The notes below the pieces were generated by a model. The model worked only from the letters and a program-made list of their open reading frames with translations. It made no database searches and was not told the origin of the DNA. From Hyphomicrobiales bacterium (GTDB lineage Bacteria; Pseudomonadota; Alphaproteobacteria; Rhizobiales; Devosiaceae): 64,000 nt of DNA. The DNA lies in assembly GCA_004144345.1 (NCBI GenBank), contig SEEL01000006.1, positions 1 to 64,000 of the forward strand. The letters are read 5' to 3'. Both the position numbers and the translations under genes were made by a program. Shown here piece after piece: positions 8,732 through 64,000 of the stretch (its first letter is position 1; each line of letters starts with the position of its first letter).

Positions 8732-8760
8732 TTTTCCGCCGCGTCCCGGCGCGGCGGTGA

Positions 8761-11810: not shown

Positions 11811-11859
11811 CTTCGTCACACTGGCTGCTCATGCCGAGCCGCCAAACGATGGCTCAGGC

Positions 11860-11876: not shown

Positions 11877-11935
11877 GATGCCGGGAGGAGTCCGTTTGCG
11901 GACCGGCAGAATGAGCTGGCAATAGGGAGGAACCG

Positions 11936-13198
11936 ATGAAATTGCCGAAGCTGATGATAAGCGCCGCCGTGGCGGTCGCCGCCTTGCTGGCGGCCACGCC
12001 GATGGGCGCTTTCGCCCAGGACTTGCAGATGTGGGAGCGCACCGGTGGCAACGCCACCATGGTGGATAAGCTCGTCGAGATGTGGAACGAGAAGAACCCC
12101 AACCGGAAGATCGTTCTCACCTATATCGAGCACTCCGAAATGGTGCCCAAGCTCGCCCAGGCGATCGCTTCGGGCGAAGTGCCGGATCTGATGGGGCTCG
12201 ACCTGATCTATGGCCCGCAATTCGAAGCAGCCGGCCAGCTCGAGGACATCACCGACTATTTCAAGGACGACGCCACGCTCAAGACCGCGAGCCCCGGCCA
12301 CATCCTCGTCTCGACCTACAATGACCGCCTCTATGGCGTGCCGCTCTATGCCGACGTGTCGGTGCTGTACTGGAACAAGCTCCTGTTCAAGGAAGCCGGC
12401 CTCGATCCGGAAGTCGGCCCGGCGAGCCTGCAGGACATCCACGACATGGCGGCCAAGATCACCGCCCTCGGCGATGGCAAATATGGCTACTACCTCCCCG
12501 GCAATTGCGCGGGCTGCAACATCTTCACCTTCGGCCCGCTGATCTGGGCGTCGGGCGGCAAGATCGAGCCGCTCGATGCCAATGACGAGCCGCTGGTGGG
12601 CGACAACATCGCCAAGGTGCTCGAATGGGCGCGCCAGATGCACAAGGACGGCCTGATCAATCCGGCCAACCAGTCCGAGAACGGCTCGACCTTCGCCGAG
12701 CAGCTCGGGTCGGGCAAGGTGGGCATCATGGGCACGGGCAATTTCAACCTGTCCCTGCTGCAGGCGCAGAACCCGGATCTGTTCAACAATGTCGGCGTGA
12801 CGTTCCTGCCCGGCCTTGAGCCCGGCTCGGCGGCGTCCTTCGCCGGCGGCGATATCGTCACGGTGCCCAAGGGCTCGAAGCGTGTTTCCGATGCGGTGGA
12901 CTTCATGAAATTCATCCTCTCGGACGAAGTCCAGGTCGAAGGCTATGCCAAGCTGCTCAACCTCACCACGCGCGGCGACATGGCCAACAACCAGTACTTC
13001 ACCGACCCGCGCGTCGTGAAAATGGCCTCGGCGCTCGATGTCGCCCGGACCCCCTACACGCTCAAATTCTTCGAGCTGATCAACTCCCCGCAGGGTCCGT
13101 GGCTGCAGATGCTGCAGCGCGTCTACTACACCGATGATCCGATCGATCAGATCATCACCGATGCGAAGGCCCAGATGAAGGCCATCGCCGCGGAGTAA
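11936..13198 (+). CDS. CUT1 sugar-binding protein, second system
   Basis: This is a 420-aa periplasmic binding protein with a signal peptide at about 1-25 (AAVAVAALLAATPMGAFAQ). The mature start is DLQMWERTGGNATMVDKLVEMWNEKNP-like, characteristic of family 1 solute-binding proteins for sugars. A strong AGGGAGG site precedes the ATG. It heads a transcript with two permeases, a LacI regulator and a GH127 enzyme, and is preceded by two LacI-type palindromes. The ligand is probably an arabino-oligosaccharide, perhaps beta-linked given GH127; this is an inference from context. No ATPase gene is in this unit. Confidence 0.92.
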   Translation: MKLPKLMISAAVAVAALLAATPMGAFAQDLQMWERTGGNATMVDKLVEMWNEKNPNRKIVLTYIEHSEMVPKLAQAIASGEVPDLMGLDLIYGPQFEAAGQLEDITDYFKDDATLKTASPGHILVSTYNDRLYGVPLYADVSVLYWNKLLFKEAGLDPEVGPASLQDIHDMAAKITALGDGKYGYYLPGNCAGCNIFTFGPLIWASGGKIEPLDANDEPLVGDNIAKVLEWARQMHKDGLINPANQSENGSTFAEQLGSGKVGIMGTGNFNLSLLQAQNPDLFNNVGVTFLPGLEPGSAASFAGGDIVTVPKGSKRVSDAVDFMKFILSDEVQVEGYAKLLNLTTRGDMANNQYFTDPRVVKMASALDVARTPYTLKFFELINSPQGPWLQMLQRVYYTDDPIDQIITDAKAQMKAIAAE

Positions 13199-13218
13199 CC
13201 GCCTCCCGGGCGGTCATC

Positions 13219-13249
13219 GGTCGCGGCATCTCGCAAGAGGGCCGCGACC
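13219..13249 (+). promoter_or_regulatory. Intercistronic stem-loop after binding-protein gene
   Basis: GGTCGCGGC (13219-13227) pairs perfectly with GCCGCGACC (13241-13249) between the binding-protein stop and the permease start. It lacks a T tract. The position mirrors the stem-loops downstream of the other binding-protein genes in this window. Confidence 0.5.
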
Positions 13250-13334
13250 ATCCCCGGGGCTGGCTGAACAGTTCCCTCAGCATCTAGTGTTGGCGCGCCG
13301 GCCCAGGCCGGCCGGAAGTCGCAAGGCGGGTTCG

Positions 13335-14213
13335 ATGTATTCCTCTCCCAGAAGCAAATGGCTGGGCCTGCTCTATCTGACGCCGGCGCTGCTGTTCGTC
13401 GCGCTCTTCACCGTCTATCCGCTGACCCAGATGATCTGGGTGTCGTTCAACAACTGGACGCTCATCTCGCCGCCGAAATTCGTCGGCCTCAACAATTTCA
13501 CCAAGGCGTTCAGCGATCGCCAGTTCTGGGTCTCGCTCACCTTCACCCTCAAATACACAGCCATCATCACGCCCATCCTGATGATCGGCGGCTATGCCGT
13601 GGCCCTGCTGGTCGCCGGCAATTCGCCGCTGCAGCGTTTCACCCGCACGATCGTCTTCCTGCCGGTGGTCATCGGCCTCGGCGCTTCGAGCCTCCTCTGG
13701 TACTGGCTGTTCGCCGCCGATGCGGGCTTCATCAACACCATCCTCAGGGATCTCGGCCTCATCCGGACGCCGATCCTTTGGCTCGGCGTCAATGCCGATG
13801 TCTCCAATTTCGCGATCATCATCTCGGTGGTGTGGAAGGTGCTCGGCTTCGGCATGATCCTGTTCGTCGGCGCCATCCAGGCGGTCTCGACCGAGGTCAA
13901 TGAAGCGGCGCTGGTCGATGGCGCGTCGGGCTGGCAGCGCGTGCGCTCCATTACCCTGCCCCTGACGCTGCGGACCATCCTCCTCGTCACGCTGATCTCG
14001 GTGATCGGCTCGCTGCTTGCCTTCGACCAGTTCTACATCATGACCGCCGGCCAGCCGCAGAACCTCACCGCGACCTCGGTGTTCTTCATCTATCTCAACT
14101 CCTTCCCCTATCTGAAGCTCGGCTATGGCGCGGCGCTGTCGCTGATCCTCGCGGTCTTCGTGCTGCTGTTCACGCTGGTGCAGATGCTGGCCACGCGCAG
14201 GAGCCACGCATGA
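13335..14213 (+). CDS. CUT1 sugar ABC transporter permease (MalF type)
   Basis: The permease is about 292 aa, starts MYSSPRSKWLGLLYLTPALLF, has six predicted spans and carries the EAA loop (EVNEAALVDGASGWQRVRSITLP). I prefer the ATG at 13335 with AAGGCGGG upstream; an in-frame GTG at 13287 would add 16 residues rich in Arg and Gly. The last codons overlap the next permease start by ATGA. Confidence 0.92.
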   Translation: MYSSPRSKWLGLLYLTPALLFVALFTVYPLTQMIWVSFNNWTLISPPKFVGLNNFTKAFSDRQFWVSLTFTLKYTAIITPILMIGGYAVALLVAGNSPLQRFTRTIVFLPVVIGLGASSLLWYWLFAADAGFINTILRDLGLIRTPILWLGVNADVSNFAIIISVVWKVLGFGMILFVGAIQAVSTEVNEAALVDGASGWQRVRSITLPLTLRTILLVTLISVIGSLLAFDQFYIMTAGQPQNLTATSVFFIYLNSFPYLKLGYGAALSLILAVFVLLFTLVQMLATRRSHA

Positions 14214-50763: not shown

Positions 50764-51456
50764 CTAGACGTGGACCTTAATGCGCGAGGCGGGCCAGACC
50801 GAGGTACTGATCTCTACGGGGACGCCTTTCGCATCGACGTTCCGCCCCTCCAGCACCAGCACGGGACTCGCCTGGGGAATTTCGAGCAGGGCGGCCTCGT
50901 GCTTGGCGGGCATGCGGGCGGAAATCGATGAGTTGCTGCGGCGAACATCCTGCATGCCGATCCGCCGCAGCAGATCGCTGATACCGGTGGCGACCTCAAG
51001 ATGCTCGGACAGCGTCGGAAACCGATCTTCCGACAGATAGTGGCGGGCGAGGCAGAGCGGCTCGCCATTGGACCGGCGCAGCACGTAGAGGTCAAAGATG
51101 CGCGCGCTCCGGTTGATTCCCAGGCCGCGGGCAATCTCGGGCGTCGCTTGGCGCGTCCGCAGTTCCAGGAACTCGATGGTCGGCGACGCATCGAGCCGCC
51201 TGACGTTGTGGTTGTAGCTCGTCCGCGATGAGATCTGGTAGTCGACAAGCTGGCCGAGGACGTAGGTTCCGCTGCCCTGTCGCGCACCCAGTACCCCGCG
51301 CTTTTCGAGCAGGTCGAGCGCTTTGCGGATGGAATGGCGGGGCGCGCCGTAGCTTTCGCCGAGCTCTTTTTGGGTCGGCAAGCGGGTGCCTGTCCGGACC
51401 CCGTTCGTGATCAGGCTCTCGGCGATAGCGTCGGCGATTTGCACGTGGTCGAGCAT
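50764..51456 (-). CDS. GntR/UTRA regulator resembling PhnF
   Basis: The 230-aa protein has a winged helix at about 5-70 (LITNGVRTGTRLPTQKELGESYGAPRHSIRKAL) and then a UTRA effector domain. The effector has the pattern seen in phosphonate regulators of the PhnF group: ALxLxR-like start, LCLARHYLSEDRFPTL, ISARMPAKHEAALLEIPQASPVLVLEGRNVDAKGVPVE in pieces, and a basic end. It is divergent from a peptide-type importer, PHP enzyme and PhnX, so it likely controls them. HutC-type sugar or amino-acid regulation is the alternative. Confidence 0.8.
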   Translation of the reverse strand: MLDHVQIADAIAESLITNGVRTGTRLPTQKELGESYGAPRHSIRKALDLLEKRGVLGARQGSGTYVLGQLVDYQISSRTSYNHNVRRLDASPTIEFLELRTRQATPEIARGLGINRSARIFDLYVLRRSNGEPLCLARHYLSEDRFPTLSEHLEVATGISDLLRRIGMQDVRRSNSSISARMPAKHEAALLEIPQASPVLVLEGRNVDAKGVPVEISTSVWPASRIKVHV

Positions 51457-51497
51457 CTTTCAGATCTGCCCTTTGGCTACTCCGACGCTACGTAACT

Positions 51498-51518
51498 CAC
51501 CAACCCGACGATTTGGTG
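51498..51518. promoter_or_regulatory. Palindrome between PhnF-like regulator and importer
   Basis: CACCAA (51498-51503) and TTGGTG (51513-51518) form a perfect inverted repeat with a 9-bp spacer. It is 42 bp from the regulator start and just upstream of TTGACG (51529-51534), a -35 candidate for the importer operon. It is a possible operator for both genes. Confidence 0.5.
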
Positions 51519-51657
51519 TGAAGTTTTCTTGACGAGACGAACTTTTTGCCGCGCACCGGCATCAGCGTCACCGAGCCGTCATGAGCCAAGCCTTTCCCTC
51601 GCGCCTGCCATTCACACCACCTCCCGCGGGGGAGGCGGCAATCGCGAAGGAAATTCC

Positions 51658-53256
51658 GTGAACTCGATGACGAAACGTCAATTCATTCAGATGCTTGGTA
51701 TGGGCGCTGCGGCCCTAGGCATCAACAGCGCGCTGGGCACTGCAGCTCTTGCAGCAACCGCCGATGCGCCGGATTGGGCCGCTCTGCCGGAGGGCGCCAC
51801 TCCCAAGACAGGTGGCAAGCTGATCTATGGCCAGACCTATCCCAACTGGGACATCGGAACGTCGGACAAGGGGCAGAATCCCTACTACTGGATCGACCTC
51901 CTGACCCGCTCGATCTGGAACCCGCTGGTCTGGATCGACGACGAGTTCAACATGCGCGGCGAGCTGGCCAGCTCCTGGGCGCCTACCGACGAAACCCTGA
52001 CCAAGTGGGACTTCCAACTTCGCGAAGGCGTGCAGTTCCACAATGGCCAGGAAATGACCTCGGCCGACGTCGTGTCCTCCTTCGTTGCACACATCGAGCG
52101 CAAGGGCAGCGGCTTCGTCAACAAGTGGGTGGCCAGTATCGAAGCCTTGGGGCGGTATGCCGTCCGCTTCAACCTGACCGCTCCCTACGCCGAATTCCCG
52201 TTCGTGCTGGCCGAGTACCGCCTGGTGGTCTTCCCGGCAGCGGCACCAGACGTCGTCGGCTACGACGGTATCGGCACCGGCCCGTACAAGCTCGTCGAAG
52301 TCGACAACAAGCGCGGCTTCAAGGCCGTCCGCAATGAGAACTACTGGATGGCGGGCCGGCCCTTCGCCGATGAAGTCGAAGGCTACATCGTCACCTCCCA
52401 GACCGCGATCAATGGCCTCCGGGCGGGCCAATTCAACGCCGTGTTCAACATCGACCCGACCACGGCCGGCCAGTTCGAGGACGCCGGGGCGCTCGTCCAT
52501 CGTGCCCGCGGCGGCGACCAGTTCCTCCTCAGCTTGCCCAAGAACCTCGACATGATCTGGAACGACGTCCGCGTGCGCAAGGCGCTCACCCTGGCGATCG
52601 ACCGCGATGCGATCAACACCATCGTCTACCAGGATCCGGGCAGCTGGGTGGGCAACGACACGCACATGTCGGGCCTGAATGCCGAGTTCCTGCCGCGAGA
52701 AGTTGCCTACAACATCGACGAGGCCAAGCGTCTGCTCGCCGAGGCCGGCTATCCCAACGGCATCGACCTGCCGAGCATCGTCTACTGCCCGTCTTTCCCC
52801 GAAGAGCCGCGCATCATGGCGATCGTTGCGGAGTCCCTGAAGAAGGCCGGCATCAACCTCGAGCTTAAGGAAATCGCCTGCGACGGCTTTTCGGCCTATG
52901 GCACCGCCGTCAACGCCCCCGTCGGTCGCCCGCGGCGCAGCCTTATCGGCCCGCGCAGCCCGGCGATCAACATGGGCCGTATGGAGCCCGAGGTCGGCGT
53001 CGGCGAGAACGGCGGCTGGGCCGGTACGAAAGCGGATGAGTACAAGGCGCTCTACAACGCCGCGGTCGCCGAACCCGACGCCGGAAAGCGCCTCACCATG
53101 TACCAGGAGCTACAGCGCGTGGCGCAGGACGACGTCCCGGCGATCATGCTGGGCGGCCGCCGTAACATGCTGGCCCACATGCCCAATGTGAAGAACCTTC
53201 GCGCCCACTCGCAGAACTGGTCGACGCGCTTCGACGAGTTCTGGATCGAAAGCTGA
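51658..53256 (+). CDS. Peptide/nickel-type (family 5) substrate-binding protein
   Basis: The protein is 532 aa from the GTG at 51658 (AAGGA five bases upstream); ATG 51667 (MTKRQF) is the alternative. A KR-type export leader (QMLGMGAAALGINSALGTAALAA) is followed by a family 5 binding fold: LASSWAPTDETLTKWDFQLREGVQFHNG, IGTGPYKLVEVD, VRVRKALTLAIDRDAI. Family 5 proteins bind oligopeptides, metals, opines or other large polar solutes. The neighbouring PHP, PhnX and dehydrogenase genes suggest an organophosphonate or its ester (inferred). Confidence 0.9.
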   Translation: MNSMTKRQFIQMLGMGAAALGINSALGTAALAATADAPDWAALPEGATPKTGGKLIYGQTYPNWDIGTSDKGQNPYYWIDLLTRSIWNPLVWIDDEFNMRGELASSWAPTDETLTKWDFQLREGVQFHNGQEMTSADVVSSFVAHIERKGSGFVNKWVASIEALGRYAVRFNLTAPYAEFPFVLAEYRLVVFPAAAPDVVGYDGIGTGPYKLVEVDNKRGFKAVRNENYWMAGRPFADEVEGYIVTSQTAINGLRAGQFNAVFNIDPTTAGQFEDAGALVHRARGGDQFLLSLPKNLDMIWNDVRVRKALTLAIDRDAINTIVYQDPGSWVGNDTHMSGLNAEFLPREVAYNIDEAKRLLAEAGYPNGIDLPSIVYCPSFPEEPRIMAIVAESLKKAGINLELKEIACDGFSAYGTAVNAPVGRPRRSLIGPRSPAINMGRMEPEVGVGENGGWAGTKADEYKALYNAAVAEPDAGKRLTMYQELQRVAQDDVPAIMLGGRRNMLAHMPNVKNLRAHSQNWSTRFDEFWIES

Positions 53257-53277
53257 TCTCTCGATCGTCTCCCTTAG

Positions 53278-53305
53278 GGCGGGCGGCGCTTCGACGCTGC
53301 CCGCC
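53278..53305 (+). promoter_or_regulatory. Intercistronic stem-loop after binding-protein gene
   Basis: GGCGGGC (53278-53284) pairs with GCCCGCC (53299-53305). GCG/CGC (53286-53288 with 53295-53297) extends the stem around a CTTCGA loop. It lies between the binding-protein stop and the first permease, the same position as in the three sugar systems. Confidence 0.6.
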
Positions 53306-53321
53306 GGAACCGCGAGCCCCC

Positions 53322-54293
53322 ATGCCCCATATCCTGATACTTGTCGGCCAGCGCATCGCCTTTGCTGTCCTGATCCTGTCCCTCGTCGTCGCCATCGTCT
53401 ACGCCGGCACCGAGATCCTGCCGGGCGATGCCATCACGGCCATGATCCCGCAGGACGAGCTCGTCTTCTTTAGCGAGGCCGACCTTACGGCCCTGCGCGC
53501 CGAGTACGGTATGGACCGGCCGGCTATCGTGCGCTTCGCCGAGATGTGGTGGAACCAGTTCACCTTCAACTTCGGTACCACGCTGGCGCAGCGCGAACCG
53601 GTGATCGACCGTATCTTTTACCCGATCCGCAACTCCGCCATCATGTCCGGCGTGGCGTTGTCGGTCATGCTTATATTGGTCCTCGGCATGGGCATCCTTG
53701 CCAGCCTCAAGCCCGGCGGCAAGCTCGACACAGCGCTGAGTACCGGGACGCTGGTCTCCTACTCGCTGCCCGATTTCGTCGTCGGCAATTTGTTCGTGAT
53801 GGTCTTTGCCGTGTGGCTCGGCATCGCGCCTGCCGTGATCATGATCAACACCAATGCCGATGCTCTGGCGGTGCTGGTCTCCTCCTTCCTGCCGGTCGCG
53901 GCGCTGTGCGTGGCTGGCGCCGCCTACCAGTTCCGACTCCTCCGTGGCGGCATGATCGAGGTCATGTCGACCGACTTCGTCGAACGCGCCCGCCTTGCAG
54001 GCCTGCCGACCTGGCGCATCGCGCTCATCCATGTCCTGCCTGCAGCAGTGATCCCGATGCTCAACGGCATGACCCAGTTCGTCGCCGGGCTGATCTCGGG
54101 CACTGTGGTGATCGAGGCGGTCTTCAAGTTCCCGGGTGCCGGTGTCGAACTACTCCGCGCCCTGTCGCAGCGAGAACTGCCCACCATCCAGGCCATCGCC
54201 TTTCTCGCCGCGCTCGCCGTCGTGGCCGCCAACCTCATCTCCGACCTGGCCGTCATTGCACTTGATCCACGCGTCCGCAGGAGGGCCGCATGA
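53322..54293 (+). CDS. Peptide-type ABC permease (DppB type)
   Basis: The 323-aa protein has an N-terminal span (LVGQRIAFAVLILSLVVAIVYA), the DppB signature region LRAEYGMDRPAIVRF and an EAA-like loop (DFVERARLAGLPTWRIALIHVLP). There are six membrane spans. It overlaps the next permease start by ATGA. Confidence 0.93.
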   Translation: MPHILILVGQRIAFAVLILSLVVAIVYAGTEILPGDAITAMIPQDELVFFSEADLTALRAEYGMDRPAIVRFAEMWWNQFTFNFGTTLAQREPVIDRIFYPIRNSAIMSGVALSVMLILVLGMGILASLKPGGKLDTALSTGTLVSYSLPDFVVGNLFVMVFAVWLGIAPAVIMINTNADALAVLVSSFLPVAALCVAGAAYQFRLLRGGMIEVMSTDFVERARLAGLPTWRIALIHVLPAAVIPMLNGMTQFVAGLISGTVVIEAVFKFPGAGVELLRALSQRELPTIQAIAFLAALAVVAANLISDLAVIALDPRVRRRAA

Positions 54294-55174
54294 CTGACAT
54301 TCACTTTTCTTCCACCCCCTCCCAACCCTGGTGGTCCCAGTTGCGCGCCGGCCGGGTCGGCAGGGCGCTGTCCGAACCGGTCACGCTGCTCGGCGTGATC
54401 CTGGTCACCATTCATCTCCTGATGGCAATCTTCGCGCAGGCGATTAGCCCTCACTCGGTCAGCGCCCTTGTCGGCACGCCGATGCAGACACCGAATGTCG
54501 AGTTCTGGCTGGGCACCGACCAGATCGGGCGGGACTATCTCAGCCGCCTCCTCGCCGGCGGACAGGTGGCCCTGCTCGTGGCCAGCTGTGGCATCGTGAT
54601 TGCCGTGGCGGTGGGCACTGCCCTCGGCATTGTCGCAGGCTATCTGGGTGGCCACACCGACGAGATCATCATGCGGGGCGTCGACACCATGATGTCGGTC
54701 CCCGAACTAATCCTCATCGCCATCCTCACCCTGGCCATCGGCAGCGACCTGAGTTCGCTCATCCTTGTAGTCGCCGTCACCTATTTCGCCGGTGTCGTTC
54801 GCGTGGTTCGCGCCCGCACCGTGATGCTCTCGACACAGGACTTCGTGCGCGCGGCGGAGCTGCGTGGTGAGAAGCGGTTGGCCATCATGTTCCGGGAGCT
54901 GCTGCCTAACCTGGTCGGTCTGCTTGGCATCGAACTGGCCGTGCGGATGTCCTCCGCCATCCTCAAGATCAGTGCCCTGTCCTTTCTCGGGCTCGGGGTC
55001 AGTCAGCCCACGCCCGATTGGGGCCTGATGGTCCAGGAGGCGATGGGCGTCGTCTACACCGATCCATGGTTCCTCATGCTGCCCGCAGCGGCGCTCGCGA
55101 GCCTTATCCTGGGCATCAATTTCGCGGTCGACGGCTTTACCCGTGCCTTCGGCATCTCGACCTCGGAACTCTAG
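54290..55174 (+). CDS. Peptide-type ABC permease (DppC type)
   Basis: The 294-aa protein shows the DppC features: WLGTDQIGRDYLSRLLAGGQVALLVA, an EAA-like loop (DFVRAAELRGEKRLAIMFRELLPN) and LSFLGLGVSQPTPDWGLMVQEA. It is translationally coupled to the DppB-type gene and 3 bp ahead of the ATPase gene. Confidence 0.94.
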   Translation: MTDIHFSSTPSQPWWSQLRAGRVGRALSEPVTLLGVILVTIHLLMAIFAQAISPHSVSALVGTPMQTPNVEFWLGTDQIGRDYLSRLLAGGQVALLVASCGIVIAVAVGTALGIVAGYLGGHTDEIIMRGVDTMMSVPELILIAILTLAIGSDLSSLILVVAVTYFAGVVRVVRARTVMLSTQDFVRAAELRGEKRLAIMFRELLPNLVGLLGIELAVRMSSAILKISALSFLGLGVSQPTPDWGLMVQEAMGVVYTDPWFLMLPAAALASLILGINFAVDGFTRAFGISTSEL

Positions 55175-55177
55175 AAC

Positions 55178-56845
55178 ATGAGCAAGTTTCCTCACGTGCA
55201 GATCGAGCATCTCCTCGTGCGCTACCGCACAGGGCCGGACACCGCACACACAGCCGTCGACGGCGTCTCGGTCAACATCCGCCGTGGCGAGACCATCGGC
55301 ATCGTCGGTGAGAGCGGTTGCGGAAAGTCGACCCTCGCCCGCACACTGCTTGGTTACACGCGGCCGGGTGCCTGGGTGGCTGGCGGTCACGTCAAGATCG
55401 ACGGCGCCAACATCTTCGACTTCGCCCCCTCCTCGCTACGCAACTTCCGCGGCCGTTCCGCTGCCATGGTGCCGCAGAACCCGCTCTCATCGTTGACGCC
55501 GCATGTGACCCTGGGCCAGCACCTAACCGAGTTGATCGCCTTCTACGGCAAGGCGAGGGGTCGCGAGGTGAGAGAGCGGGCACTCGACCTCATGGCGGCC
55601 ATGGGTCTGCCCGAGCCCAAAGCGCTGTTCGATCGCTATCCGCATGAAATCTCCGGCGGGCAGCGACAGCGCGTGGTGATCGCCGCCGCCCTGGTTGCAG
55701 AGCCACCCCTCGTGGTGCTCGATGAGCCGACCACGGCGCTGGACAAGACGGTCGAAACGCAGGTGCTGGACCTGGTGGCCGGCCTGCAGCGCCAGCACGG
55801 CACCACGCTCGTATATGTGAGCCACGACCTCAACGTAGTCCGACGTATGTGCAGGCGTGTGCTCGTAATGCATGCAGGCAAGGTGCTGGAAGACGGAGCC
55901 ATCGACGATGTCTTCAGCAGCCCGCGGACCGAGTACGCTCGCAACCTTGTCGCGGCGATTCCGCGACTAGAGGCAACACGCCCGCTGGTGTCCGCGGCTC
56001 GCGGCCGGCAGCCCAGGCTCGTTGTTGAGGATCTCGACTTCAGCTACGGCCGAAAGCGCGGTGGGCTGGCCAAGATGCTCTTCGGCGCCGGCAAGCGGCC
56101 GCCGCTGACCTTGACCGGCATCGACCTTTCCCTCGCCCCCGGACAGACGGTCGGCATCGTCGGCGAGTCGGGCAGTGGCAAGTCCACGCTCGCGGCACTT
56201 GTCGCTGGCCTTTACGCGGGCAACTCGGGCCGGATCACGCTGGACGGCACTCTGCTCTCCGGTCGGGCAGCCGGACGTGACCCGGATTTGCGACGCCGCG
56301 TCCAACTGATCTTCCAAGACCCGCTGTCATCGCTCAATCCACGCCACACCGTGGAGTCGCTGATCTCGCGACCGTTGCATATCTACCGCAACATGACCCG
56401 GGCGCAGGCTCGCGACCGGTGCGTCGAGCTGCTGGCCGAACTCGACCTGCCCACAGACATTCTGTCCCGAATGCCACGCCAGTTGTCGGGCGGCCAGCAG
56501 CAGCGAATAGCTATAGCGCGCGCCTTCGCCGCGGAGCCTGACCTGGTGTTGTGCGACGAGATTACCTCAGCGTTGGACGTCACGGTCCAGGCCCAGGTCC
56601 TCAAGCTGATGAAGCGTCTGCAGCAGGAGCGGGGCACGTCCTACCTGTTCATTTCGCACGACCTGCCGGTCGTCGCGCAGATGTCTGATCGCATCATGGT
56701 GCTCGAGCGCGGCCAGATCCGCGACTACGCCACCACCACCACCATTCTGACAGGACAGACGTCCGACTACACGCGGCGTCTCCTTGGCGCCTTCGACGCC
56801 AACAGAACTCACTCAACCCAAAGGACTATAGAACATGTCGCTTGA
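55178..56845 (+). CDS. Double ABC ATPase (DppD-DppF fusion) of peptide-type importer
   Basis: The 555-aa protein has two complete ATPase domains in one chain. Domain 1 (about 5-260) has Walker A GESGCGKST, ISGGQRQR, Walker B VLDEPTTALD and SHDLNVV. Domain 2 (about 280-545) has GESGSGKST, LSGGQQQR, CDEITSALD and SHDLPVV. The importer therefore needs no separate partner ATPase. Its last 11 bp overlap the PHP gene start, linking transport to the enzymes. Confidence 0.95.
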   Translation: MSKFPHVQIEHLLVRYRTGPDTAHTAVDGVSVNIRRGETIGIVGESGCGKSTLARTLLGYTRPGAWVAGGHVKIDGANIFDFAPSSLRNFRGRSAAMVPQNPLSSLTPHVTLGQHLTELIAFYGKARGREVRERALDLMAAMGLPEPKALFDRYPHEISGGQRQRVVIAAALVAEPPLVVLDEPTTALDKTVETQVLDLVAGLQRQHGTTLVYVSHDLNVVRRMCRRVLVMHAGKVLEDGAIDDVFSSPRTEYARNLVAAIPRLEATRPLVSAARGRQPRLVVEDLDFSYGRKRGGLAKMLFGAGKRPPLTLTGIDLSLAPGQTVGIVGESGSGKSTLAALVAGLYAGNSGRITLDGTLLSGRAAGRDPDLRRRVQLIFQDPLSSLNPRHTVESLISRPLHIYRNMTRAQARDRCVELLAELDLPTDILSRMPRQLSGGQQQRIAIARAFAAEPDLVLCDEITSALDVTVQAQVLKLMKRLQQERGTSYLFISHDLPVVAQMSDRIMVLERGQIRDYATTTTILTGQTSDYTRRLLGAFDANRTHSTQRTIEHVA

Positions 56846-57743
56846 CGCCTTTGCCGCCCCCGGCAGTTTCTACAAGGGCAACCTGCACACCCATTCCACG
56901 CGCTCGGACGGCAAGCTCGATCCCGCCGACGTCTGCCGACGCTACGCCGAGCACGGCTACGACTTCCTTTGCCTCTCCGACCACTTCCTCGGCGCCTACA
57001 ACTTCCCCATCACGGACACGCGCCCCTACCGCACGGACAGCTTCACGACTGTCCTTGGTGCCGAACTTCACGCCATGACCACTGATTTCGGTGACCTCTG
57101 GCACATCCTCGCGGTCGGCCTGCCCGAAGACTTCGCCGACACCGGCGTCAATGAAACGGCCCAACAACTGGCCGACCGGGCTGTGGCCGCTGGTGCTTTC
57201 GTGGCCATTGCCCATCCCGAATGGTACGGGCTCAGCCTGCCCGACGCCCTGACTATGTCATCCGCGCACGCCGTCGAGGTGTACAATCATACCAGCCACG
57301 TCCACAGCGGCCGTGGCGGCGGCGCCTACTGCCTCGACATGCTGCTGAACGGCGGTCGTCGGATCAATGCCCTCGCGTGCGACGACACGCACTGGAACGT
57401 CCCGGGCGACGAGAACCGCGACGCATTCGGCGGCTGGGTGATGGTGAAGGCAGAAACCAACGAACCCGACGCCCTCGTGGACGCGCTCAGGGCCGGCCAC
57501 TACTACTCTAGCCAAGGCCCGGCTATCGAAGCCATGCACCGCGACGGCAACGAACTTGTGGTCGAGGCCTCCGCCTGCCAGCAGATCATTCTCGCCGGGC
57601 CGCATTCGCTTTCTGTCTACGCCGCCGGTGAAGGCATGCAGTCGGCCCGGCTGCCGCTCGAACGCTTTGCCGGAAAGTGGGGCCGGCTGATGGTAATCGA
57701 CAAGGCCGGCCTCATCGCCTGGTCGAACCCGATGTGGTTTTGA
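56835..57743 (+). CDS. PHP-domain phosphoesterase
   Basis: The 302-aa protein has the PHP metal-binding series: GNLHTHSTRSDG at about 14-25, LCLSDHF, GAELHAM, FVAIAHPEW and LACDDTHW. PHP enzymes bind three divalent metals and hydrolyse phosphate mono- or diesters; one (PhnPP) acts in phosphonate breakdown on a cyclic ribose phosphate. Here it sits between an importer and PhnX. A phosphonate-ester or phosphodiester hydrolase that frees the PhnX precursor is a reasonable prediction. The start at 56835 overlaps the ATPase end. Confidence 0.83.
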   Translation: MSLDAFAAPGSFYKGNLHTHSTRSDGKLDPADVCRRYAEHGYDFLCLSDHFLGAYNFPITDTRPYRTDSFTTVLGAELHAMTTDFGDLWHILAVGLPEDFADTGVNETAQQLADRAVAAGAFVAIAHPEWYGLSLPDALTMSSAHAVEVYNHTSHVHSGRGGGAYCLDMLLNGGRRINALACDDTHWNVPGDENRDAFGGWVMVKAETNEPDALVDALRAGHYYSSQGPAIEAMHRDGNELVVEASACQQIILAGPHSLSVYAAGEGMQSARLPLERFAGKWGRLMVIDKAGLIAWSNPMWF

Positions 57744-57761
57744 ACAGAGGACGCGATAGAC

Positions 57762-58598
57762 ATGACAATGACTGAGAAGCTGGGCGCCGACTTTCGCGGG
57801 CCGGTGGCCGTCGCCATTTTCGATTGGGCTGGGACCGTGCTGGATTACGGCTGCATGGCGCCGGTGGTGGCATTTCGAGAAGCATTCGCCGAGAACGGCG
57901 TCGAGATTAGCGAGGCTGAAGCGCGGGCGCCCATGGGCGCGGCCAAGCGGGTGCATATCGAGATGATCCTCGACCAGCCGGCGGTGGCCGAGAGGTGGCA
58001 GGCAACCAAGGGCGGCAGAGCCGGCCAGGACGACGTCGATCGCCTCTATGCTGCGTTTCTTCGGATCGATGAGGTCAACTGCGCCAGGTTCAGTGACCTC
58101 ATCCCCGGCGCGCTCGATGCCATCCAGCGCCTTCGACGCGCGGGCATCGCGATCGGCAGCACGACCGGCTATCCGCGCAGTGTGATGGACGGTCTGATGC
58201 CGCTGGCCAGGGCGCAGGGCTACGAACCTGATCACTGCGTCACGGTCAGCGAAGTCAGGCGCGGCCGGCCCTATCCCGATATGGTGCTGGAGAATGCCGT
58301 GGTGCTCGGCGCACGGGACGTGATCGCCTGCGTCGTCGTGGACGATAGCCCGACGGGCCTCGTCGCGGCCCGCGCGGCCGGCATGTGGGCCATCGGCATC
58401 GTTGCGAGCGGCAATGAAGTCGGCCTGTCCCCCAAAGACTGGCAGGGCCTCACTGCTGGGCAGCAGCAGGACCACAGGCAGCGGGCCGAGGCCACGCTTC
58501 TTGCAGCGGGCGCCCATTTTACCATCGATACTGTCGCCGACCTGCTTCCGGTGATCGAGCAAATCAACACGATGCTTTCTGAGGGGCGGCGCCCGTGA
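57762..58598 (+). CDS. phnX: Phosphonoacetaldehyde hydrolase (phosphonatase)
   Basis: The 278-aa HAD-superfamily enzyme cleaves the C-P bond of phosphonoacetaldehyde to acetaldehyde and phosphate. The nucleophile Asp21 and Ala23 are in FDWAGTVLDYGC, the phosphonatase form of the HAD motif. The Schiff-base Lys62 lies in MGAAKRVHIEMIL, where Bacillus PhnX has Lys53. GSTTGYPRSVMD and VVVDDSPTGLVAARAAGMW complete the signature. The usual partner PhnW (2-aminoethylphosphonate transaminase) is not nearby. An alcohol dehydrogenase overlaps its 3' end instead. Confidence 0.93.
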   Translation: MTMTEKLGADFRGPVAVAIFDWAGTVLDYGCMAPVVAFREAFAENGVEISEAEARAPMGAAKRVHIEMILDQPAVAERWQATKGGRAGQDDVDRLYAAFLRIDEVNCARFSDLIPGALDAIQRLRRAGIAIGSTTGYPRSVMDGLMPLARAQGYEPDHCVTVSEVRRGRPYPDMVLENAVVLGARDVIACVVVDDSPTGLVAARAAGMWAIGIVASGNEVGLSPKDWQGLTAGQQQDHRQRAEATLLAAGAHFTIDTVADLLPVIEQINTMLSEGRRP

Positions 58599-59719
58599 CC
58601 ATCTGGACCTACCGCAACCCTGTGGACCTGCATTTTGGAAACGGGGTGATCGAACAAATCGGGCGCGTGGTGGCCGGGCGCCGCTACCTGCTGGTCACCC
58701 ATCCGGATGCACCAATAGCCCGGTGGCGAGACCGCGTCGTAGCGCTTGCCGGCGATCCCGTCGCTATTGCCGATGAGGTGGAACCCAATCCGTCGCTGGA
58801 GATGCTCGCCCGCATGTGCAGCCGACTGTCCACGATAGCCGATCGGGTCGAGGTTGTCGTTGCGCTCGGCGGTGGCTCGGTGATCGATTCCGCCAAGTTC
58901 CTCGCCGCCGGCCATCTGGTCTTCAAGCCGGTGCGGGATTACCTCGAACATGCCCAGCCACTCCCAGGCAAGGCATTGTCACTGATTGCCATACCGACGA
59001 CTGCGGGCACCGGTAGCGACCTCACCAAGTGGGCGACCATCTGGGACCCGCAGACCGACCGGAAGCTGTCGCTCAATTCCGATGACCTCTATGCGAAATC
59101 GGCGCTGGTCGATCCCGACATCACGACAAGCCTGCCCTGGGGCCTGACACTCGCAAGCGGCCTCGACGCATTATCCCACGCACTCGAGAGCATCTGGAAC
59201 GTCAACGCCAATCCAGTGACCCGCAACTTTGCCGTCGCCGCGGCCCGGGACGTCCTGTCGGCGCTGCCCGCGCTTCAGGTCGACCTGACCGATCCGGGGG
59301 CCCGAACTACCTTGGCTCGAGGCGCAACCTTTGCCGGTCTGGCGTTCTCCAACACCCAGACTGCCCTCGCGCACAATATCTCCTACCCCATCACACTTCG
59401 GCACGGCGTGATCCATGGCATCGCCTGCTCATTTTGTCTCCCGGAGGTTATGACCGCGGCAATCGGCGCCGCCGAGGAATGCGACGCTGCGCTCGCCGAC
59501 ATCTTCGGTGCAGTCGAAGCCGCCCCCCACAGACTGCGCGCATTTCTTTCCAGCCTCGGTGTTCCGCAGGATCACGCTGCATTGGGTATCGAAGAGGCGG
59601 AGTGGCAGTCGATCGTCACGAGTGCTTTCTCTGGGCCACGCGGCAGGAACTTCATTGGCCGCGCGGATCGCTTCAGTTTCCGCGACCGCCACCCGGCCGC
59701 CAACTCAGAGAAAAAATGA
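58595..59719 (+). CDS. Iron-type alcohol dehydrogenase next to phnX
   Basis: The 374-aa group III (Fe-ADH fold) enzyme starts at GTG 58595, overlapping the phnX stop. VVVALGGGSVIDSAKFLAAG binds NAD(P); IPTTAGTGSDLTKWAT is the nucleotide loop. Metal ligands include the Asp in DPDITTSL and the His residues in LDALSHALES and RHGVIHGIAC. Members called phosphonoacetaldehyde reductases interconvert phosphonoacetaldehyde and 2-hydroxyethylphosphonate. Beside PhnX it could oxidise hydroxyethylphosphonate to the PhnX substrate, or remove acetaldehyde. Which one is unknown. Confidence 0.88.
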   Translation: MTIWTYRNPVDLHFGNGVIEQIGRVVAGRRYLLVTHPDAPIARWRDRVVALAGDPVAIADEVEPNPSLEMLARMCSRLSTIADRVEVVVALGGGSVIDSAKFLAAGHLVFKPVRDYLEHAQPLPGKALSLIAIPTTAGTGSDLTKWATIWDPQTDRKLSLNSDDLYAKSALVDPDITTSLPWGLTLASGLDALSHALESIWNVNANPVTRNFAVAAARDVLSALPALQVDLTDPGARTTLARGATFAGLAFSNTQTALAHNISYPITLRHGVIHGIACSFCLPEVMTAAIGAAEECDAALADIFGAVEAAPHRLRAFLSSLGVPQDHAALGIEEAEWQSIVTSAFSGPRGRNFIGRADRFSFRDRHPAANSEKK

Positions 59720-59821: not shown

Positions 59822-61312
59822 CTATAGCGGGATTTCGTCGAGCGGGAAGATGGGGCGGCGCAGCTTGCTGTAAGGCAGGAGCCGCGGATCGTTGGTGCAC
59901 GGACCGCGGGTCGCCACGGTGTAGCTGCCGGCGGCGATCGGATCGTAGGCACGCCGATGGGCGACCGCTGCCTTGACCACGATGAGCTTCATCTTCTCGG
60001 GAATGATGCCCTGGCTGCGCAGCTGCCCGAGATCGAAGGGCGGCGTCTTGCGCGTCGTCAGCAGGATGGTGATGCCGCCATGCCGGACGACCACTGACGG
60101 CCCCATATCGATGTGGCGTCCGACCGATGCTGCGAGATGGCTGTTGATGTCTTCGAGGTCGAATTTGCCGTCGCTGCGCGAGACCAGTTGCACATCGAGC
60201 TGGACGGGACCGTCGTCGAACGGATTGTCCCTGCCCCCGATGGCCACGGCGGTGACCGAGCCTATGGGCGCAGCCGCGAGGGCGGATACCGCCTCGGCAT
60301 CGTCGATGACGATGGCCGCGTCTTCGACGGGATGACGCAGCAGGGCGCGCAATAGGCCGGTGCCGTTGCCGGGGGCACCGCCGCCGATATTGTCGGATGG
60401 CTCGACCAGCACCACCGGTCCCTTGGCGATGGGCAGGATGCGGGCCAGCAGCGCATCGGGATCATGCTCGGCGACGAGGGCGCGGCCCCGCAGTGCGACG
60501 GCCCTGTCCTCGAGCAGATCGAGCGCGGCATCGGCCTTGGCGAGGTCGGTGGTGACCAGCGAAAAGCTCACGCCGGCATCGGCGACGTCGGCATAGGAGA
60601 AGCCGGCCACGACATTGACCGCCCAGATGGCCGGCTCCTCGGCTTCGATCCGGCGGGCCATCGCCTCAAGGTCGCGCATGGGGCTATCGGCCGTTCCGGT
60701 ACCGGTCGGGGCCCAGAGCAGCGGCAGCTTGCGCGACACCATGCGAGGCACGCGGTTCTGCCGGAAGCAGCGCGCGAGAAGTTTCGCCGCCCGCACGCCG
60801 CTCTCTCGCGCATCGATATGCGGATTTTCGCGATAGCAGACGAGCCCGCTGGCGCCGCTGGCCATGGCAGGCGTGAAGTTGGCGTGGAGATCGAAGACGC
60901 CGAAGAGCGGCACGTCGGCGAGGCCGGGCATGGCGCGCAGCCGCGCGATCATTTCGCCTTCGGGATCATCGAGGCTCTGGGTGACCATGGCGCCATGGAG
61001 CGACAGGTAGATGGCGTCGACGCCCTCGCGCCCGGCGCGTTCGGCGATGGCATCTAGATCGGCCCAGAAGCTCGCCCATACCACGTCGTCGACACGGCCC
61101 GAGGGCATTGCGGTGTAGGAGCAGGCGGGCACGATCTCCCAGCCCTCACGATCGGCGACTTCGATAAATCCGTCTATCTGCGAGCCGTCGCCGCGCCGGT
61201 CGAGCACGGCATCGCCGCGCTCGATCCTGAAGTCGGCCAGCCCGGTAATGTCGGGCGTGAAGCAATGCGTCTCATGAAAGAGACCGGCGAACAGGACACG
61301 CTTGCTCGTCAT
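59822..61312 (-). CDS. M81-family (MlrC-like) metallopeptidase
   Basis: The 496-aa protein starts MTSKRVLFAGLFHETHCF at 61312. M81 landmarks are LFHETHCFTP, YLSLHGAMVTQSLDDPEGE, GVFDLHANFTPAM, YRENPHIDARESG and a C-terminal domain with DNIGGGAPGNGTGLLRALL. The family includes microcystinase MlrC, a zinc enzyme that opens small peptides, but most members have unknown substrates (amide or lactone-like). It is the last gene of a leftward operon, 13 bp after the aminotransferase-like gene. It converges on the alcohol dehydrogenase gene. Confidence 0.9.
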   Translation of the reverse strand: MTSKRVLFAGLFHETHCFTPDITGLADFRIERGDAVLDRRGDGSQIDGFIEVADREGWEIVPACSYTAMPSGRVDDVVWASFWADLDAIAERAGREGVDAIYLSLHGAMVTQSLDDPEGEMIARLRAMPGLADVPLFGVFDLHANFTPAMASGASGLVCYRENPHIDARESGVRAAKLLARCFRQNRVPRMVSRKLPLLWAPTGTGTADSPMRDLEAMARRIEAEEPAIWAVNVVAGFSYADVADAGVSFSLVTTDLAKADAALDLLEDRAVALRGRALVAEHDPDALLARILPIAKGPVVLVEPSDNIGGGAPGNGTGLLRALLRHPVEDAAIVIDDAEAVSALAAAPIGSVTAVAIGGRDNPFDDGPVQLDVQLVSRSDGKFDLEDINSHLAASVGRHIDMGPSVVVRHGGITILLTTRKTPPFDLGQLRSQGIIPEKMKLIVVKAAVAHRRAYDPIAAGSYTVATRGPCTNDPRLLPYSKLRRPIFPLDEIPL

Positions 61313-61325
61313 CGACCGATCTCTC

Positions 61326-62654
61326 TCAGGCGGCACTGCCCTGCAGCGCGGTTTTGGCGGCGGCCAGCGTGGCCTCGACCTCGGCGGCGCCATGCGCGGC
61401 GGAGACGAACCAGGTGCCGCGACCGGTGGGACGGATGCCGGCCAGCGCCAGACGCTGGATGAAATTCTTCTGCAGCGTCAGGTCGGTGCGGCGGTAGCTG
61501 CGATAATCCACCAGATCATGGGCAGCGTCGGCAAAGTAGGTATTGAACGCAGCGCCCACACCCGAAACGCGCAGCGGCACGCCCGCATCATGGGCGAGCC
61601 GGCGGAGGCCCTCGATCAGCCGATCGCCGGTCGCTTCCACGCGCTTCAACGCAGCGCCATCGTCCGCCGAGAGCACTTCGAGCGTTGCCACCGCGGCAAC
61701 TACGCTGGGCACGTTTGTGTTGTAAGTGCCCGAATGATTGACCGCGCCGGTGCCGAACATTTCCATGAGGTCGCGACGGCCGGTCAGTGCGGCAATGGGG
61801 AAGCCGCCGGCCATTGCCTTGGCGAAGGTCGCGAGGTCGGGTGTCACGCCGAAGCGCGACTGCGCTCCACCAAGCGCCACACGGAAACCGGTGATGACCT
61901 CGTCAAAGATCAGGATGACGCCATGCTTGGCGGTGAGCTCGCGCAGGCCTTCGAGGAAGCCGGGCTTGGGTGGGATCACCCCGGTGTTGCACATCATCGG
62001 CTCGGTTAGCAGCGCGGCGACATCGCTACCCGGCGCTTCCAGCACAGCCTTGACCGCGGTGAGATCGTTCCACGGCAGAACGATCACGTCCTCGGCGGCG
62101 GACTTCACCTGACCACGCGTCTCGAGGTGCGGCTGGCGCACATGCTCGTTGGGCGAATCCACATCGGGAACGGGCGGCGCATTGCTGATCAGGACGTTGT
62201 CGAACCAGCCGTGATACTGCCCCTCGAACTTGATGAACTTGCTGCGTCCGGTGGCGGCGCGCGACAGGCGCAACGCGGCCTGCACCATCTCGGAACCGGA
62301 CATGCCGACGCGGAGCATTTCGGCATTGGGAACGGCGGCCTGGATGAGGCGTGCCAGTGCCAGTTCGGCGCGATGCTGGCCGCCATACATCTGGCCCTGG
62401 CCAAGCGCCGCCGTCACCGCATCGATAACGGGCTTGGGTGCATGGCCGAGAATGGCCGGCCCCATACCCAGCGCGTAGTCCAGCATGCGGTTGCCGTCGA
62501 TATCGAAGAGATAGGCGCCTTCGGCCCGCTCGAAGCACAGCGGCACGGTCGCGCCGCTCAGCCGGACGTTGGAATTGACCGCGCCGGCAATCAGCGACTC
62601 CGCCTCGGCGTTGTACTGCCGCGATGCTTCAAAGCTCATGCTGTTGTCGGTCAT
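61326..62654 (-). CDS. Class III aminotransferase-fold PLP enzyme
   Basis: The 442-aa enzyme resembles glutamate-1-semialdehyde aminomutase and related class III enzymes: LGMGPAILGHAPKPVIDAV, SGSEMVQAALRLSRAATGR, FDEVITGFRVALGG (Asp and cofactor site) and the Schiff-base Lys in DLATFAKAMAGGFPIAAL. It is not a likely heme-pathway enzyme, given its neighbours (M81, SDR, threonine-synthase-like). A transaminase, racemase/mutase or ammonia-lyase role on an amino compound is possible. A palindrome 24 bp upstream suggests its own regulated promoter. Confidence 0.85.
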   Translation of the reverse strand: MTDNSMSFEASRQYNAEAESLIAGAVNSNVRLSGATVPLCFERAEGAYLFDIDGNRMLDYALGMGPAILGHAPKPVIDAVTAALGQGQMYGGQHRAELALARLIQAAVPNAEMLRVGMSGSEMVQAALRLSRAATGRSKFIKFEGQYHGWFDNVLISNAPPVPDVDSPNEHVRQPHLETRGQVKSAAEDVIVLPWNDLTAVKAVLEAPGSDVAALLTEPMMCNTGVIPPKPGFLEGLRELTAKHGVILIFDEVITGFRVALGGAQSRFGVTPDLATFAKAMAGGFPIAALTGRRDLMEMFGTGAVNHSGTYNTNVPSVVAAVATLEVLSADDGAALKRVEATGDRLIEGLRRLAHDAGVPLRVSGVGAAFNTYFADAAHDLVDYRSYRRTDLTLQKNFIQRLALAGIRPTGRGTWFVSAAHGAAEVEATLAAAKTALQGSAA

Positions 62655-62677
62655 TACCTACGCCTTGTCGTTTCAGA

Positions 62678-62699
62678 ATATGGATCGTGTGTTCCATAT
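62678..62699. promoter_or_regulatory. Palindrome before the class III aminotransferase gene
   Basis: ATATGGA (62678-62684) and TCCATAT (62693-62699) flank an 8-bp spacer, 24 bp upstream of the start codon and between this gene and the SDR gene. Its half-site resembles that at 48529-48556, so a GntR-type regulator may read both; this is untested. Confidence 0.55.
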
Positions 62700-62725
62700 C
62701 GTGGCACGAAGGTCAAGCGCCGCGG

Positions 62726-63496
62726 TCAGTAGATGAGCAAGCCGCCATCCGCCACGACAACGGCGCCGATCATGAAGCTCGCGGCCGGCGAAGCGAGGAA
62801 GGCGATGACTTCAGCGACCTCTTCCGGCGTCCCGGCGCGACCGAGCGGCGTCGTGCGGACATAAGGATGCGCCGGAGGGACGGCCGGAATGGTTGTCTCG
62901 GGCAAACCGCTCGTGGCCGGACGGATGTCGCCCGGCGCAATCGAGTTGACGCGGATGCCGAGCGGCGCCCATTCGAGCGCCATGTTGCGCGTCAGGGCGT
63001 CGAGACCGGCCTTCGAGGCACAGTAAGCGGATGCATTCATCTGCGCCGCAGCGGCGCCGACAGACGAGACGTTGACGATGGCGCCGCCGCCATTGGTCTT
63101 CATCAGACGCGCGGCCAGTTGCGACAGGGCGAAGGCGCCGGTGAGGTTCACGGCGATTACCCGCTCGAAATGCTCGAGCGTCTCGTCGAGCGCCGGACCC
63201 ATGGCACCGGGGCCGGTGATCGCGGCATTGTTGACGAGAATGTCGAGGCGACCATGCGCGGCTTCGATCGCTGCAAACAGCGCGGCGCGTTGCGCTGCAT
63301 TGGCGACATCGAGAACATGGGCGGTGGCGTGCCCGCCCGCCGCCTTGATCTCGGCGACAAGGCTTTCGATGGGGGCGGCGTCGAGGCCGGCGATCGCCAC
63401 GTGATGTCCGTCAGCCGCGAGGCGGCGACTCGTGGCTGCTCCGATGCCGGTGCCACCGCCAGTGACCAGCGCGATGCCTGGCGTTGTCTTCCTCAT
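62726..63496 (-). CDS. Short-chain dehydrogenase/reductase
   Basis: The 256-aa oxidoreductase starts MRKTTPGIALVTGGGTGIGAA at 63496. The classical SDR pattern is complete: TGGGTGIG cofactor loop, NNAAITG, catalytic Ser (NVSSVGAA), Tyr-x3-Lys (AYCASKAG) and GDIRPATSG after the active site. The substrate is unknown, probably a hydroxyl or keto group in the same pathway as the flanking PLP enzymes. It follows the threonine-synthase-like gene by 2 bp. Confidence 0.93.
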   Translation of the reverse strand: MRKTTPGIALVTGGGTGIGAATSRRLAADGHHVAIAGLDAAPIESLVAEIKAAGGHATAHVLDVANAAQRAALFAAIEAAHGRLDILVNNAAITGPGAMGPALDETLEHFERVIAVNLTGAFALSQLAARLMKTNGGGAIVNVSSVGAAAAQMNASAYCASKAGLDALTRNMALEWAPLGIRVNSIAPGDIRPATSGLPETTIPAVPPAHPYVRTTPLGRAGTPEEVAEVIAFLASPAASFMIGAVVVADGGLLIY

Positions 63497-63498
63497 TT

Positions 63499-64000
63499 TC
63501 AGTCCCCGAAACTGGCCTCGATGTCGGCGCGGGTGATGGCCCGCACGCCGGGCACGCTGCCCATGTTGCGCACCGAGACCGGGTCCTTGAAGCCGTGCCC
63601 GGTGAGGATGCAAACGGTGCGCGAACCTGGCTGCAACTCGCCCCGGCGCAGCGCTTCCAGCGCGCCGAGCACACTTACCGCCCCAGCCGGCTCGACGAGG
63701 ATCCCCTCCTCCTGAGCCAGCCGTCGTTGCAGCGAGAGGACTTCGGTCTCATCGACGATGTAGCCAGAACCGCCCGTCTCGCGCGCTGTGGCGATGACAT
63801 CATCGCCATCGAGGACGAAGCCCACGCCGAGGCCGCTGATGGTGGTCGACGTGCTGACCGGTCGTGCCGCGGCAGCACCGGCGCGCAAGGGCGTCACAAC
63901 CGTGTCGTTACCCTCCGGTTGGACAGCATGCAGGCGCGGCATCTGCGCCAGCGCCGCTTCGCCGTGCAGATCGGCAAAGCCCTTGGCGATTGCCACATAG
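63499..64000 (-). CDS. Threonine-synthase-like PLP enzyme, C-terminal part (runs off the window)
   Basis: Only the last ~166 residues are inside the window; the gene starts beyond 64000. MPRLHAVQPEGNDTV, GYIVDETEVLSLQRRLAQEEGILVEPAGAVSVLGALEAL and the threonine-synthase motif CILTGHGFKDP place it in fold type II PLP enzymes (threonine synthase / threonine dehydratase group). The operon setting (SDR, class III enzyme, M81) suggests a catabolic paralogue, for example a beta-eliminating lyase, rather than biosynthesis of threonine. The catalytic lysine is outside the window. Confidence 0.82.
   Translation of the reverse strand, partial: YVAIAKGFADLHGEAALAQMPRLHAVQPEGNDTVVTPLRAGAAAARPVSTSTTISGLGVGFVLDGDDVIATARETGGSGYIVDETEVLSLQRRLAQEEGILVEPAGAVSVLGALEALRRGELQPGSRTVCILTGHGFKDPVSVRNMGSVPGVRAITRADIEASFGD

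Follow-up and report, generated by a model that had tools for sequence, protein, structure and literature searches.

A phosphonate operon with PhnX, a PsrA-type iron dehydrogenase and an importer–PHP hydrolase module suggests catabolism of bound 2-hydroxyethylphosphonate

In the PhnW–PhnX pathway for 2-aminoethylphosphonate, which employs the transaminase PhnW, PhnX cleaves phosphonoacetaldehyde and the genes cluster with an importer and a regulator. PhnX clusters in which the flavin oxidase HpnW/PbfD takes the place of PhnW have been described (PMC11203657, PMC10590968). Here we analyze a PhnX operon from a Hyphomicrobiales bacterium of the family Devosiaceae, located at 50764–59719 of a 64,000-nt stretch (the window) that covers positions 1–64000 of contig SEEL01000006.1 (assembly GCA_004144345.1; 4.1 Mb in 132 contigs, 99.99% complete, contamination 2.02). 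A PhnF-type regulator gene diverges from a tight SBP5–oppB–oppC–oppDF–PHP–phnX–psrA operon. PhnX, importer and regulator are shared with the PhnW–PhnX clusters, but no PhnW exceeds the cut-off in the cluster or the genome, and a PsrA-type iron alcohol dehydrogenase (Fe-ADH) takes the place of the transaminase. Unlike in the HpnW/PbfD clusters, PhnX is accompanied by an alcohol dehydrogenase rather than an amine oxidase, and the host genome has no HpnW match. What appears new, on the best reading of the sequence, is PsrA in place of PhnW in a hydrolytic phosphonate pathway, with an ester-uptake module in front. The operon probably serves the import, release, oxidation and hydrolysis of bound 2-hydroxyethylphosphonate (HEP), that is, the catabolism of HEP esters.

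The importer consists of a family 5 solute-binding protein (SBP5, 51658–53256, + strand; PF00496, 203.8 bits), oppB-like and oppC-like permeases (53322–54293 and 54290–55174, +; both PF00528) and a fused oppDF-like ATPase with two ABC_tran stretches (55178–56845, +). SBP5 probably starts at the GTG at 51658, with GAAGGAA just 5′ of the start codon. Next come a PHP-fold metallohydrolase of the CehA/McbA type (56835–57743, +; NF038032, 87.4 bits against a cut-off of 80), the phosphonoacetaldehyde hydrolase gene phnX (57762–58598, +; TIGR01422, 313.8 bits, cut-off 220) and the psrA-type Fe-ADH gene (58595–59719, +; TIGR03405, 428.4 bits, cut-off 423.7), which we propose encodes a HEP dehydrogenase. 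PhnF, SBP5, both permeases, the ATPase and PhnX clearly pass their curated or gathering cut-offs, and the dehydrogenase is a member of TIGR03405, named PsrA, by a narrow margin. The reading frames of oppB and oppC overlap by 4 nt, those of oppDF and PHP by 11 nt, and those of phnX and psrA by 4 nt; because of these overlaps and the intact catalytic residues, chance or decay is an unlikely explanation of the operon. This layout, the last two overlaps and an intact Asp21 and Lys62 in PhnX had all been described in an original prediction from sequence, and the profile scores and alignments bear them out.

An alignment to phosphonatases of known structure shows D21 and K62 in PhnX, which we take to be the Asp nucleophile and the Schiff-base Lys. 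Together with its membership of TIGR01422, these residues predict that it hydrolyses phosphonoacetaldehyde. In the dehydrogenase D191, H195, H260 and H274, presumably the metal-binding Asp and three His, are invariant in 87 of 87 aligned PsrA rows. The PHP protein has eight residues (H18, H20, D25, H50, E77, H127, D184 and H186) that are invariant in all 25 aligned sequences and that we regard as putative metal ligands. It scores 24.0 with the Pfam PHP model, below the gathering score of 26.4, though it passes the NF038032 CehA/McbA model. An AlphaFold model built from a five-sequence input is of low confidence (mean pLDDT 65.8); its fold matches, the best being the PHP-like phosphoesterase 3e38, are consistent with a PHP fold and go no further. 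We propose from gene context that this protein is a phosphonate-ester hydrolase.

Assembled into a pathway, the family 5 ABC importer would bring in HEP as an ester or another conjugate, and the PHP metallohydrolase would cleave the conjugate in the cytoplasm to give free HEP. The PsrA-type dehydrogenase would then use NAD(P)+ to oxidize HEP, and the resulting phosphonoacetaldehyde would at once be hydrolysed by PhnX to acetaldehyde and phosphate, a step that pulls the unfavourable oxidation forward. PhnF would repress the operon at a palindrome at 51498–51518 until a phosphonate ligand binds. HEP as the substrate, the oxidizing direction, ester hydrolysis by the PHP protein and repression by PhnF are steps that we infer. 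The original prediction had arrived at the same route: its combination of PhnX without PhnW and its oxidation step gain backing from gene neighbourhoods and genome co-occurrence, and its esterase step is backed more indirectly.

The absence of PhnW, first noted for the operon, extends to the host genome, where PhnW (TIGR02326) has three weak matches (best E = 3.1e-6), none over the cut-off. Searches of the same genome detected no HpnW flavin oxidoreductase (TIGR03364) at E up to 1e-30, no PEP mutase and no PhnJ at E up to 1e-20, and no PhnA at E up to 1e-60. One PhnX is over the cut-off, and it is the only C–P cleaving enzyme found in a search that did not include PhnY, PhnZ, PalA or PbfA.

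We next consider the genes that accompany PsrA elsewhere. One scan for relatives of the dehydrogenase gave 240 stretches, and the best 80 serve here as loci (numbered L); a neighbourhood is defined as 9 kb to either side, and contig ends truncate some loci. PhnX lies within this distance at 7 of the 80 loci (L005–L008, L061, L076 and L082) and PhnA at 22, 21 of them with PhnY; PhnY alone occurs at one locus and PhnW at four. In each member of the clade nearest to the window's PsrA (L005–L008, 58–65% identity) phnX precedes psrA and overlaps it by 4 nt. One of them, L006, is from Sphingobium sp. SYK-6, whose genome has no PhnW or PhnA over the cut-off and no PhnJ. At L082 (9854–13150) the genes for PsrA, an HpnW flavin oxidoreductase and PhnX are consecutive, which would place two possible feeders before one PhnX.

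These pairings bear on a reading in which the dehydrogenase removes the PhnX product by reducing acetaldehyde, with phosphonoacetaldehyde arising from another substrate through an unrecognized enzyme. Acetaldehyde is indeed the product of PhnX, whose gene overlaps that of the dehydrogenase, alcohol-aldehyde dehydrogenases are among the PDB relatives of the Fe-ADH, and another source of phosphonoacetaldehyde could exist, the host-genome search having left out PbfA, PhnY and PhnZ. The 22 PhnA loci, however, would yield acetate and not acetaldehyde, and neither PhnW, PEP mutase nor HpnW is over its cut-off in the host, so we judge this reading quite unlikely. Oxidation of HEP is favoured because it fits both the PhnA/PhnY pairings and the lack of a found phosphonoacetaldehyde source.

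Co-occurrence was then examined in 49 genomes (numbered G), that of the host and those behind 48 of the 80 loci. Matches over the cut-off were found for PhnW in 30 genomes, for PhnX in 10 and for PhnA in 34. Among the 19 genomes without PhnW over the cut-off, eight have PhnX, ten have PhnA and one, a Reyranella metagenome-assembled genome (MAG; G005), has neither. In these similarity-chosen and non-independent genomes PhnW is missing from 18 of the 27 in which PsrA adjoins PhnX or PhnA, versus 1 of the 22 others (Fisher p = 6e-6). Four genomes (G020, G023, G031 and G039) carry, by coordinates, one PhnA gene 107–119 bp from PhnW and a second inside the PsrA locus, a pattern to be expected of two clusters that act on different phosphonates.

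The family also has a published reading in the opposite direction. PsrA shares with PhpC a phosphonate context and presumably the family (TIGR03405); PMC9381506 reports PhpC-like Fe-ADH genes from catabolic operons and proposes that their products reduce phosphonoacetaldehyde to HEP, whereas we read the enzyme here as oxidizing. Homologues on Vibrio plasmids are annotated as phosphonoacetaldehyde reductases, and five PsrA genomes have PhnW and lack PhnX, PhnA and PhnJ, as a reductase would allow. Such a reductase would need a supply of phosphonoacetaldehyde, yet in 18 genomes, the host among them, PsrA is paired with PhnX or PhnA and no PhnW is over the cut-off; PEP mutase is over its cut-off in just one of the 18 (G018), and most contain none of the searched-for sources. 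For the window we therefore hold a PhpC-like reduction to be very improbable.

Several observations nevertheless weigh against HEP oxidation by PsrA. Fifty of the 80 loci, some cut by contig ends, have no PhnX, PhnA or PhnY within 9 kb, and the 49 genomes follow from loci chosen by similarity and are not independent. Seven of the 49 (G005, G017, G022, G027, G034, G037 and G041) have neither PhnX nor PhnA over the cut-off; six of these seven have PhnW, and PhnJ is present in only one of the six (G037). In the five genomes with PhnW and without PhnX, PhnA and PhnJ, the dehydrogenase may therefore work as a reductase or serve another consumer. Five plasmid contexts of PsrA were viewed, and PhnX or PhnA is found in three (L085, L086 and L093); of the remaining two, L092 is unannotated and L094 contains PhnD, PhnC and PhnE, both without PhnX or PhnA. 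Likewise L124, which comes from the same order as the host, shows only PhnDCEE and a LysR gene next to PsrA, with no PhnX or PhnA.

Two further PsrA contexts deserve mention. On a Comamonas plasmid (L093, 1–10002), genes of the alkaline phosphatase family and for phospholipase C are followed by PhnD–PhnC–PhnE–psrA–phnX, a gene set that suggests extracellular release of the free phosphonate. At L050 (11108–14423) the genes after PsrA encode a membrane protein resembling phn_DUF6, a protein resembling nitrile hydratase alpha and an amidase; the first two score below their cut-offs.

The original prediction regarded the route as no textbook pathway, and its novelty is smaller than it had supposed. 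NCBI already names the family PsrA, PhpC-like operons are on record (PMC9381506), and oxidation of HEP to phosphonoacetaldehyde, feeding hydrolytic pathways, was considered for another enzyme in PMC12366243, where it was deemed less likely and the enzyme is reported as a racemase. A literature search, with most subscription papers outside its scope, returned nothing on HEP catabolism by an iron dehydrogenase with PhnX, nothing on a PHP hydrolase of phosphonates and no tested function for the PsrA dehydrogenase family. In PMC5649143 HEP is broken down by C–P lyase, giving ethylene. The operon points to a hydrolytic route for HEP that would give acetaldehyde and phosphate, without C–P lyase and without ethylene, and would lend a direction to the named dehydrogenase family PsrA.

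The importer and PHP genes form a module that recurs beside PsrA. An SBP5–opp–PHP module of 61–68% identity stands beside LysR–PsrA–PhnA–PhnY at L054, L055 and on an Ensifer plasmid (L085), and also beside PsrA and PhnX on an Agrobacterium plasmid (L086); on the two plasmids the identity is 61–66% per protein. The PsrA proteins of these four loci are only 46–48% identical to that of the window (46–47% for the Agrobacterium one); the Opp–PHP module therefore seems to have joined PsrA on at least two occasions, rather than descending with it as one block. L007 has phnF–PHP–phnX–psrA with no adjoining importer gene recognized. At L005 a PHP gene (65% identity) lies behind a more distant Opp-type importer.

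Replacement of the module gives a hint of its chemistry. The PsrA–PhnA–PhnY core of L060 is 89–93% identical in DNA to L055 and L054, and where these two have Opp–PHP, L060 (1563–8801) has an SBP_bac_1 protein, two permeases, a TOBE-domain ATPase and a GDPD phosphodiesterase, along with a remnant of the PHP gene (residues 204–302, the 3′ part). At L045 an importer of this kind, a GDPD gene and a metallophosphoesterase gene directly precede PsrA. Domains and the GDPD genes suggest that both importers are Ugp-like. The best hint that the PHP protein cleaves a phosphorus ester is that a phosphodiesterase with its own importer replaces it in L060. A comparable division of labour is found in the AccA–AccF agrocinopine system (PMC7356202), which joins a binding-protein-dependent importer to an intracellular phosphodiesterase. 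A PDB comparison of SBP5 recovers the agrocinopine-binding protein AccA (E about 1e-16 to 2e-17), though not as the top match; here the hydrolase is of PHP type and the proposed substrate a phosphonate ester, and we claim no membership of that system.

The imported compound might instead be another phosphorus conjugate, for example a phosphonate that is N-substituted or linked to a peptide, with the PHP protein acting as an amidase or carboxylesterase and the dehydrogenase on a different hydroxyphosphonate. Opp-type importers carry many ligands, the PHP protein is of the CehA/McbA type, and at L150 the Opp–PHP set stands beside HpnW–PhnX, where the phosphonate would be an amine. This reading accounts less well for the GDPD phosphodiesterase and Ugp-like importer that stand in place of Opp–PHP at L060, or for the importer, GDPD and metallophosphoesterase before PsrA at L045; moreover, the partner common to all outputs is the phosphonate group, not an amine or alcohol. 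We rate it as unlikely and retain HEP esters as the probable substrates.

Outside PsrA loci, the PHP family is linked to phosphonate genes in part of its range. Among plasmids, 21 records match the PHP protein, and four of the seven viewed carry phosphonate genes (Ensifer, Agrobacterium, Haematobacter and Rhizobium leguminosarum). The R. leguminosarum plasmid (L089, 3709–18842) has phnF–SBP–ABC–PHP next to a cluster that combines PEP mutase, cytidylyltransferase and CDP-alcohol transferase genes and perhaps serves phosphonolipid synthesis. A class-wide draw found the PHP protein (E up to 1e-40) in 12 of 385 genomes, the host counted in. Within the order of the L119 genome it occurs in 21 of 150 genomes, and all 21 fetched stretches contain Opp-type genes. 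Seven of the 21 read PHP–oppB–oppC–SBP5–oppDF–EamA–metallophosphoesterase–phnGHIJ; L119 continues with phnKLM and the other six end in phnJ. These seven stretches (L119 and L144–L149) are close kin, mostly 97–100% identical, and count as about one case. The L119 operon (38–13546) is low in GC (0.30). At L151 (5225–10023) the PHP gene adjoins PhoR-like, PstS-like and PstC-like genes.

A phosphonate role for the PHP protein meets objections of its own. Its named CehA/McbA relatives hydrolyse carbamates, and three of the seven viewed plasmid contexts (of 21 records) have no phosphonate genes. On the Haematobacter plasmid phnN to phnI start 5 kb from the PHP gene, on the other strand and past a Tn3 transposase. 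Phosphonate genes were detected by tblastn with our own reference set at only one (L119) of the 12 non-host loci of the class-wide draw (11 genomes); by the same reference set, L112 has a 59% identical PHP copy with no phosphonate genes nearby. A PhnM-like tblastn match at L121 is left uncounted, as Pfam found nothing in that open reading frame (ORF).

The recurrence of the module leads to a broader and more tentative proposal. Opp–PHP, or a Ugp-like importer with GDPD, could be a portable cassette that imports phosphonate esters and frees the phosphonate in the cell, plugged into PsrA–PhnX, PsrA–PhnY–PhnA, HpnW–PhnX or C–P lyase outputs. HEP and methylphosphonate have been described as the commonest phosphonates in marine organic phosphorus of high molecular weight, where they are ester-bound, and their release has been drawn as alkaline-phosphatase-like (PMC8931226); HEP esters of marine polysaccharides are broken down by bacteria with C–P lyase, the esterase being only postulated (PMC5649143). 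In relatives from the host's class that have small, low-GC genomes, the PHP–opp–phn operons might offer a way, inside the cell, around the postulated alkaline-phosphatase-like enzymes that would free methylphosphonate and HEP from marine polysaccharides. The L119-type genomes may belong to marine HIMB59, whose fGIphn-D island likewise holds C–P lyase and an oligopeptide-type importer that its authors suspect of phosphonate uptake (PMC10734472). The passages of PMC10734472 on this island mention no PHP gene, and the window differs from it in using PhnX, not C–P lyase. We consider the cassette, in its full breadth, possible but short of probable. For the window, our reading would supply an enzyme class, PHP, for the release of ester-bound phosphonates, the step postulated in PMC5649143.

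Regulation was approached through phnF (50764–51456, − strand; TIGR02325, 176.6 bits, cut-off 156.8), a GntR/UTRA phosphonate regulator gene with both UTRA and GntR domains. Between phnF and SBP5 lies a 21-bp palindrome, CACCAA-N9-TTGGTG (51498–51518), which we propose as a candidate PhnF operator on the strength of its location and recurrence. Its half-sites recur at L005 (2930–2950), and L054 and L055 have a palindrome of equal span, CGCCCAAT-N5-ATTGGGCG. Counterparts are thus found in three of the seven relatives compared, and the palindrome between phnF and SBP5 is absent from L007, L085, L086 and L089. By count alone the site is near chance: the window has two palindrome sites with at most one mismatch versus 0.53 expected, and in the host genome seven operator-like sites (two exact, five with one mismatch) compare with five for a reversed control. 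A scan of 51400–51700 for promoters and terminators found nothing.

Class-V aminotransferases make up the superfamily of PhnW, and the second exact palindrome of the host genome lies inside a class-V aminotransferase gene at L164, not upstream of it. We rejected this gene as a co-regulated PhnW, since no host gene passes the PhnW cut-off. The original prediction had named a co-regulated phnW or pbfA elsewhere as contrary evidence; no PhnW or HpnW over the cut-off was found, and of the seven operator-like sites only this second exact one was inspected.

PsrA at E up to 1e-90 occurs in none of 18 congeners and in 2 of the 41 genomes of a set of relatives, the host counted in, a rarity that suggests horizontal gain. 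The 64-kb window contains no tRNA gene. Past the operon, convergent minus-strand genes at 59822–63613 encode an MlrC-like M81 peptidase, a HemL-like class-III aminotransferase and an SDR protein. The aminotransferase gene (61326–62654, −), 1.6 kb past the operon, was considered as a PbfA and set aside: it is HemL-like and encoded on the other strand, and a comparison with 91 loci at E up to 1e-20 gave a relative at L061 alone (38% identity), which is no proof of PbfA absence, as no PbfA sequence or model was searched. The GC content of the operon is 0.64–0.65, inside the window's range of 0.62–0.67.

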